Origin: an uncultured Granulosicoccaceae bacterium
Lineage (GTDB): Bacteria; Pseudomonadota; Gammaproteobacteria; Granulosicoccales; Granulosicoccaceae
DNA length: 64,000 nt
Direction of reading: 5' to 3'
NCBI GenBank assembly: GCA_937957915.1
Contig: CALGNZ010000028.1
Location: forward strand, 47,736-111,735
The notes under the pieces are model-generated. The model did no database searches. It had not been told where the DNA came from and worked only from the letters and a program-made list of their open reading frames with translations. Of this stretch, positions 850 to 1,793 are shown piece by piece. The position numbers and the translations under genes are program-made. The number at the start of each line of letters is the position of its first letter. The first letter of the stretch is position 1.

Positions 850-1476
850 ATGTTAAACAAAAAAGTCATCATACCGATCATAGCGGCGATATTGGTCGCT
901 CTCGGTGTAAATCTGGAAGAGTTGGGTATTGACCTGAACCAACTGGCAGGCAATCAATCAACGTCTACGCAGTCGAACAACAATAAGGACGTTTTTGCTA
1001 CCAATACAAACAGCACCAAAACTATTCCGTCCAAAAACTCGGGTTCGGTAAAGGCTTACTCACCGGGCAGTAAATGGTCAAAAACCAGTCCGGCGGTGAA
1101 TTTACATCATGTCTTTGAAGGTGAAATTAATCGCAAAGGCAAGCCCGTTGGCTACCACTCTCGCCCTGGCGGGCAAGATCCGGAAGGTGCGAAGTTAGTA
1201 AAAATGCGTGATAAGCCGAACAAGGCGGGTGTCTACACAGCGATCATAGCCGTGCGTGATCAAGGTGACTGGAAAGAGAAATTTTCGAGTTTTTTCCCTG
1301 ATGACATGTCGCAGCAGGAAGTCGTTGATGCCGTGCTGAACGCTTACAGAAAAAGTTCAGACAAGAAAAAGCAACCCTGGCAGGGGCCGTCAGGTTTGGG
1401 TTTTGATATTCAGGGTTACACCCTGTCTAAAGGTGATATCAATACGGCATTCCCCGTTTACAGGAGAGACAACTGA
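850..1476 (+). CDS. EndoU-like nuclease domain protein with N-terminal hydrophobic segment
   Basis: N-terminal TM/signal (VIIPIIAAILVALGV), then a C-terminal domain with VNLHHVFEGEINRKGKPVGYHSRPGG...GVYTAIIAV...FFPDDMS...GLGFDIQGY, resembling bacterial EndoU toxin domains. Confidence 0.7.
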   Translation: MLNKKVIIPIIAAILVALGVNLEELGIDLNQLAGNQSTSTQSNNNKDVFATNTNSTKTIPSKNSGSVKAYSPGSKWSKTSPAVNLHHVFEGEINRKGKPVGYHSRPGGQDPEGAKLVKMRDKPNKAGVYTAIIAVRDQGDWKEKFSSFFPDDMSQQEVVDAVLNAYRKSSDKKKQPWQGPSGLGFDIQGYTLSKGDINTAFPVYRRDN

Positions 1477-1793
1477 TGGCGAAGCTTGAATTTTATCGCG
1501 ACGATCAGGGTAATGCCTGTGCTCGTGGCTCAGACCAGCGCCTGGCTACCTTTCTGCAAACCGATCTGCAGGGGTCTGTTGAGGTAACTCGGGATCTTGC
1601 AGGCAAGCTTGCAGGCTCTGATAAAAAGGCTGAGTTCAGTGGCAATGGACATAGCGTGAGCATTACCCCGGTGATGGCTGTTATCGAATCTCACTTTGAT
1701 GATGAGGCGCCGGATCGACGCATGACTCGTGCACATTTGTTAAAGCAGGTTGAGGCTTGGTTAAAATTTATCAGTGATGAAAAACATGCCTGA
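1476..1793 (+). CDS. small cytosolic protein overlapping the EndoU-like gene; candidate immunity protein
   Basis: 105 aa, start codon overlaps the upstream stop (TGATG). No signal peptide. Confidence 0.5.
   Translation: MAKLEFYRDDQGNACARGSDQRLATFLQTDLQGSVEVTRDLAGKLAGSDKKAEFSGNGHSVSITPVMAVIESHFDDEAPDRRMTRAHLLKQVEAWLKFISDEKHA

Follow-up and report, generated by a model that had tools for sequence, protein, structure and literature searches.

Barnase is an exported RNase and barstar is its cytosolic inhibitor. Pairs of an EndoU-type nuclease and a small immunity protein have been described among the CdiA-CT/CdiI systems (e.g. that of Escherichia coli STECO31; PMC9086364) and the MafB/MafI systems of Neisseria (PMC4287609). 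The EndoU signatures that we used for comparison are H,H,[SNT],[SNT] and H-H-K (PMC3482391, PMC9086364). In a survey of polymorphic toxins, the only immunities given for EndoU are SUKH, SuFu and Imm28, and UPF0231 is absent (PMC3482391).

Here we analyze two overlapping genes at the start of a 64,000-nt stretch of DNA from an uncultured Granulosicoccaceae bacterium (the window). From sequence comparisons we consider it probable that they encode an exported RNase and a cytosolic inhibitor, and that together they are a domesticated toxin-immunity pair belonging to the stable core of Granulosicoccaceae.

Layout of the gene pair

The features of the locus are as follows.

850..1476, + strand: EndoU-A, predicted stand-alone exported EndoU nuclease of 208 aa (ATG ORF; PF14436 match)
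850..909, + strand: N-terminal membrane anchor, residues ~1-20 of EndoU-A (alignment, AlphaFold helix 4-17, hydrophobicity)
910..1074, + strand: low-complexity linker, residues ~21-75 of EndoU-A (alignment; pLDDT 56-70)
1075..1464, + strand: EndoU catalytic domain (PF14436 match; conservation)
1108-1110, 1156-1158, 1279-1281, 1390-1392 and 1444-1446, + strand: EndoU domain codons for H87, H103, K144, S181 and T199, in that order
1462..1466, + strand: AGGAG, Shine-Dalgarno-like, within the EndoU gene and 9 nt ahead of the ORF2 ATG (sequence read directly)
1474..1478, + strand: TGATG stop/start overlap (sequence read directly)
1476..1793, + strand: ORF2a, predicted cytosolic immunity protein of 105 aa, from a family homologous to UPF0231/YacL (ATG ORF; AlphaFold pLDDT 92)

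An earlier note on this DNA had described a small ORF, lacking a signal, that starts inside the stop codon of the EndoU gene. Both statements agree with what we found: one base is common to the EndoU TGA (1474-1476) and the ORF2a ATG, and ORF2 has no membrane segment.

EndoU family assignment

The same note had assigned 850..1476 to the EndoU family on the basis of a sequence pattern and had looked to conservation of the catalytic His pair as a check. The assignment holds. PF14436 (EndoU_bacteria) matches residues 86-203 with an E-value of 1.3e-22 and a score of 80.9 bits, compared with a cut-off of 25.3, and EndoU-A covers positions 6-128 of the 129 in the profile; the quoted pattern is present as H87-V-F-x-GE ... 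GYH103-S. All 41 aligned relatives also match PF14436, and EndoU-A is the sole match in its own genome. Invariant in these relatives, which come from several phyla, are both members of the His pair, H87 and H103, together with F89, G91, G101, N124, G127, Y129, S146, P150, T199, A200 and P202, and K144 is nearly invariant in the same set. The two His residues of EndoU-A are ~16 residues apart and are followed by a Lys and a S/T. By analogy with known EndoU enzymes, H87, H103, K144 and T199 probably have catalytic roles, and EndoU-A is predicted to be an active nuclease.

The AlphaFold model of EndoU-A has a pLDDT of ~97 over residues 80-208, where the order of elements is helix-3 strands-helix-3 strands. 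A Foldseek search with this model against the PDB and the BFVD viral library retrieved no EndoU structure and nothing significant; therefore, membership in the EndoU family rests on the sequence profile and the motif. When the EndoU profile was compared with PDB sequences, the only match was a motif-level, non-significant one to the EndoU-family endoribonuclease 9ftw (E 0.2). PADLOC gave no match.

Membrane anchor and export

EndoU-A begins with KK followed by a hydrophobic helix at residues ~4-17, and the linker between this anchor and the EndoU domain varies in length and sequence among the aligned relatives. The description in the earlier note, a short N-terminal membrane segment with no large scaffold, is accurate, as the 208 residues comprise anchor, linker and EndoU domain. 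A strongly hydrophobic segment precedes the EndoU domain in 80 of the 81 short EndoU proteins, and the orthologues from g3/g6 (L007, L011, L030) carry a lipobox, which EndoU-A of the window lacks. Because of the hydrophobic segments and the lipoboxes, we conclude that export is the rule in the short-EndoU branch. The same hydrophobicity threshold was reached by only 2 of 67 ORF2 proteins, and by those marginally. The lysines suggest the orientation of EndoU-A in the membrane.

Conservation in Granulosicoccaceae

The named relatives belong to Granulosicoccaceae. EndoU is a single-copy gene in 46 of 48 genomes (species) of this family and ORF2 is present in 44 of the 48, while in the sampled class EndoU was found in 16 of 369 genomes, including three members of the family besides the genome of the window. 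Within the window genus the pair has one fixed neighborhood, with the order 4-oxalomesaconate tautomerase, EndoU, ORF2a, S9 peptidase, kinase and accB. The dN/dS ratio, taken only where dS was not saturated, is ~0.03-0.11 for both EndoU and ORF2, and both genes are under strong purifying selection. Both are absent from G001 and G030; since these are draft assemblies, the apparent co-loss is weak evidence.

The earlier note had also implied a polymorphic or contact-dependent toxin, and this part of its interpretation did not stand. Consisting of anchor, linker and EndoU domain, EndoU-A carries no N-terminal trafficking, repeat, delivery or pre-toxin domains, and its C-terminal tip does not vary among close relatives, the same EndoU being found at the conserved locus. 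Core status, conserved locus and low dN/dS do not fit a polymorphic toxin in active use. These observations bear on the possibility of a working antibacterial toxin-immunity pair, in which the anchored EndoU would be displayed or shed and kill neighboring cells while ORF2 protects kin. Homologues of EndoU-A do occur in CdiA, Rhs and LXG toxins, its partner is of the immunity type, and secreted MafB EndoU toxins use only a Sec signal peptide and an N-terminal domain (PMC4287609). However, polymorphic toxins vary between close relatives, and here a near-universal gene with fixed neighbors is under strong constraint; we believe that such a use is unlikely.

Core status and a conserved locus, together with the membrane or lipoprotein N-terminus, would also be suited to a housekeeping periplasmic RNase that acts in RNA scavenging or turnover in place of RNase I, with ORF2 serving only to guard the cytosol until the enzyme is exported, much as barstar guards against barnase. 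RNA-uptake genes are not linked to the pair, which counts against this role. We regard it as quite possible, at a little under an even chance; it is a sub-version of the domesticated-pair explanation with the role fixed.

ORF2 homologues behind EndoU tips

ORF2 homologues lie directly downstream of an EndoU gene in 55 linked pairs, all of them same-strand and mostly with a gap of -4 to +16 nt. In the ORF2 profile search the linked pairs span six phyla: Pseudomonadota, Acidobacteriota, Thermodesulfobacteriota/Myxococcota, Cyanobacteriota, Planctomycetota and Verrucomicrobiota. Thus the co-occurrence of the two genes in relatives, on which the earlier note had made its proposal depend, was found.

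ORF2-family genes also follow the EndoU tips of long toxins. In L217 a ShlB-type CdiB is followed by a 2608-aa CdiA with ESPR, TPS, haemagglutinin repeats, PT-VENN and an EndoU tip, and then by an ORF2-family gene. In L150, from Photorhabdus, such a gene follows a CdiA-type protein of 1741 aa that ends in an EndoU tip, and on the same contig (L219) an EndoU domain comes after an N-terminal stretch that reads like the end of an Rhs core. The 111-aa gene after this Rhs-like EndoU tip itself reaches the UPF0231 cut-off. The gene adjacent to EndoU-A is of the same family as these genes of true CDI systems (L150, L217, L219). Homologues behind CdiA and Rhs EndoU tips make the strongest case that ORF2 has an immunity role, which the earlier note had offered as an inference and which homology now supports. 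ORF2 would probably neutralize EndoU physically. An exported nuclease may require no immunity protein at all, and this counts against the domesticated-pair explanation.

ORF2 had no match in phages, and a Foldseek search of the PDB with the ORF2 model gave nothing significant. A weak phmmer match in the PDB to colicin-M immunity (E 1.6, 27 residues) was rejected as chance, and matches of the ORF2 profile to designed TPR repeats were dismissed as a repeat artefact in which many sub-threshold stretches are summed over the repeats. Tandem immunity gene copies in G458 (L217) were considered and dropped because the second, 163-aa ORF is unrelated. This ORF (L217:206-697) lies beyond the EndoU CdiA and the ORF2-type gene and may be the orphan immunity gene of a different tip.

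Other cassettes were seen in the course of these searches. The Rhs-like EndoU tip of Photorhabdus with its UPF0231-type immunity gene (L219:1557-2715) is preceded by a second Rhs-like tip (3-797), whose C-terminus differs, an arrangement that is a typical run of displaced tips. EndoU proteins of ~600 aa, with N-terminal regions that have no Pfam matches and each followed by an ORF2-family gene, are encoded at L152:503-2341 and L069:1489-3255, from Akkermansiaceae and a gammaproteobacterium, respectively; the start of the L069 gene is possibly misplaced.

Two ORF2 lineages

A scheme in which EndoU and ORF2 are a single co-inherited pair everywhere was replaced after trees were made, as the ORF2 tree splits into two lineages, ORF2a and ORF2b. 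ORF2a is found in the window genus, G003, L087 and L110 and is linked to EndoU-A. ORF2b is linked to a lipoprotein, EndoU-B, in g3 and g6 and is unlinked in g4 and g5, which include Granulosicoccus; the EndoU tree groups the g4/g5 EndoU with the window type. In the single-contig Granulosicoccus genome G019, EndoU and ORF2b are 1.39 Mb apart, each in its own conserved neighborhood. So large a separation is unusual for a toxin-immunity pair and is a second point against the domesticated-pair explanation. In several Granulosicoccus genomes a DUF937 protein (L208:3354-3974) is conserved next to the unlinked ORF2b.

A single intact ORF2, either ORF2a or ORF2b, is present in nearly all genomes that carry EndoU. 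The EndoU-A genomes without ORF2a all have an intact unlinked ORF2b, with the exceptions of G031 and G037. True loss of ORF2 in these two was dropped as an explanation, assembly gaps being likely: in G031 the contig ends before the ORF2b site, and the neighboring kinase of G037 was likewise not found. Only G003 has both lineages, and its ORF2b (L220) is degraded, lacking the otherwise nearly invariant Q32 and GN motif; G560 and G561, of the G003 group, have ORF2a and no ORF2b. From these few independent events, ORF2b appears to be retained in genomes without ORF2a, as a replacement of ORF2a by ORF2b would predict.

Relationship to UPF0231/YacL

By profile comparison, the ORF2 family is homologous to UPF0231/YacL of E. 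coli, with the window protein as a distant relative. PF06062 (UPF0231) is matched by 32 of 43 family members (best E 1.5e-9), several members match NCBIfam YacL models, and hhalign aligned the ORF2 family with UPF0231/YacL at an E-value of 3.3e-16 over 107 columns. The ORF2 profile scored 18 of 18 YacL proteins at 19.7-44.9 bits, compared with at most 10.3 bits in ~900 shuffles. The window ORF2a itself gave no Pfam match at E<=1 and falls short of the PF06062 cut-off. In Photorhabdus the gene that follows the CdiA tip exceeds the Pfam UPF0231 cut-off, and the genome also has a true YacL.

Of 149 genomes sampled around G298 in the E. coli-side order, 98 had UPF0231 and only 4 had EndoU; because of this, YacL is considered an orphan in that order. 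In E. coli yacL is an orphan adjoining acnB. These counts would agree with a regulatory or YacL-like housekeeping function of ORF2, which would merely be co-transcribed with EndoU and have no part in immunity, and so would the persistence of unlinked ORF2b in Granulosicoccus, where it adjoins a two-component system. Such a role would make it hard to account for ORF2-family genes being linked to EndoU in six phyla and directly associated with three long toxins, and we consider this role improbable.

Taking ORF2 again as a predicted immunity protein, we tentatively suggest that UPF0231/YacL may be a family of EndoU immunity proteins, i.e. RNase inhibitors. E. coli YacL would then be a fixed orphan antidote, and Granulosicoccaceae would represent an intermediate stage, a domesticated pair whose antidote is already unlinked and exchanged between lineages. 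In our judgment the balance leans against this wider proposal. No mention of UPF0231/PF06062 was found in the open-access literature searched, and the link may be noted elsewhere. If true, the proposal would offer a testable function, inhibition of EndoU-type RNases, for YacL/UPF0231, an uncharacterized protein that is core in E. coli and throughout most of the order to which it belongs. The ORF2 family itself is a predicted EndoU immunity family that the main survey of polymorphic toxins does not list for EndoU.

Proposed mechanism

In the domesticated-pair explanation, 850-1476 would encode a metal-independent EndoU-type RNase whose single N-terminal helix tethers it to the inner membrane and whose catalytic domain lies outside the cytosol. 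From the same message, 1476-1793 would give a small cytosolic protein that binds and blocks the EndoU domain, protecting the cell from EndoU that is not yet exported or that re-enters. The pair would descend from, or have common ancestry with, the toxin-immunity cassettes at CdiA and Rhs tips. In Granulosicoccaceae it would have become a pair of stable, vertically inherited core genes, and in part of the family the job of immunity would apparently have passed to the unlinked ORF2b. This would be a case of a toxin-immunity cassette fixed for good, in single copy, as a gene pair of a bacterial family, in some of whose lineages the antidote gene has been relocated within the genome.

Comparison with known systems

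The window pair resembles the EndoU pairs of CdiA-CT/CdiI systems (such as that of E. coli STECO31; PMC9086364) in having an EndoU-type nuclease with a small immunity gene, predicted in the case of the window, directly after it, and relatives of its ORF2 are the gene behind EndoU-tipped CdiA (L217, L150). It differs in that CdiB, the TPS domain, the repeats and the pre-toxin domain are missing and in that it is not variable. The STECO31 pair has been solved (5HKQ), whereas no sequence match to the ORF2 family of the window could be detected in the PDB. With MafB/MafI of Neisseria (PMC4287609) the pair has in common a Sec-exported EndoU RNase, as predicted here, and a specific immunity gene downstream. 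However, MafB has a variable tip, carries DUF1020 and lies in genomic islands, whereas the window EndoU has an anchor only and is a core gene. The likeness to barnase/barstar, in which the RNase is exported and the inhibitor is cytosolic, is one of analogy: that nuclease is from another branch, its inhibitor is a different one, and the window enzyme probably stays membrane-anchored, or lipidated in some orthologues. UPF0231/YacL (PF06062) is related to the ORF2 family, most of whose members match it; in contrast to the window protein, which scores below the PF06062 cut-off and is coupled to an EndoU gene, E. coli YacL stands as an orphan beside acnB.
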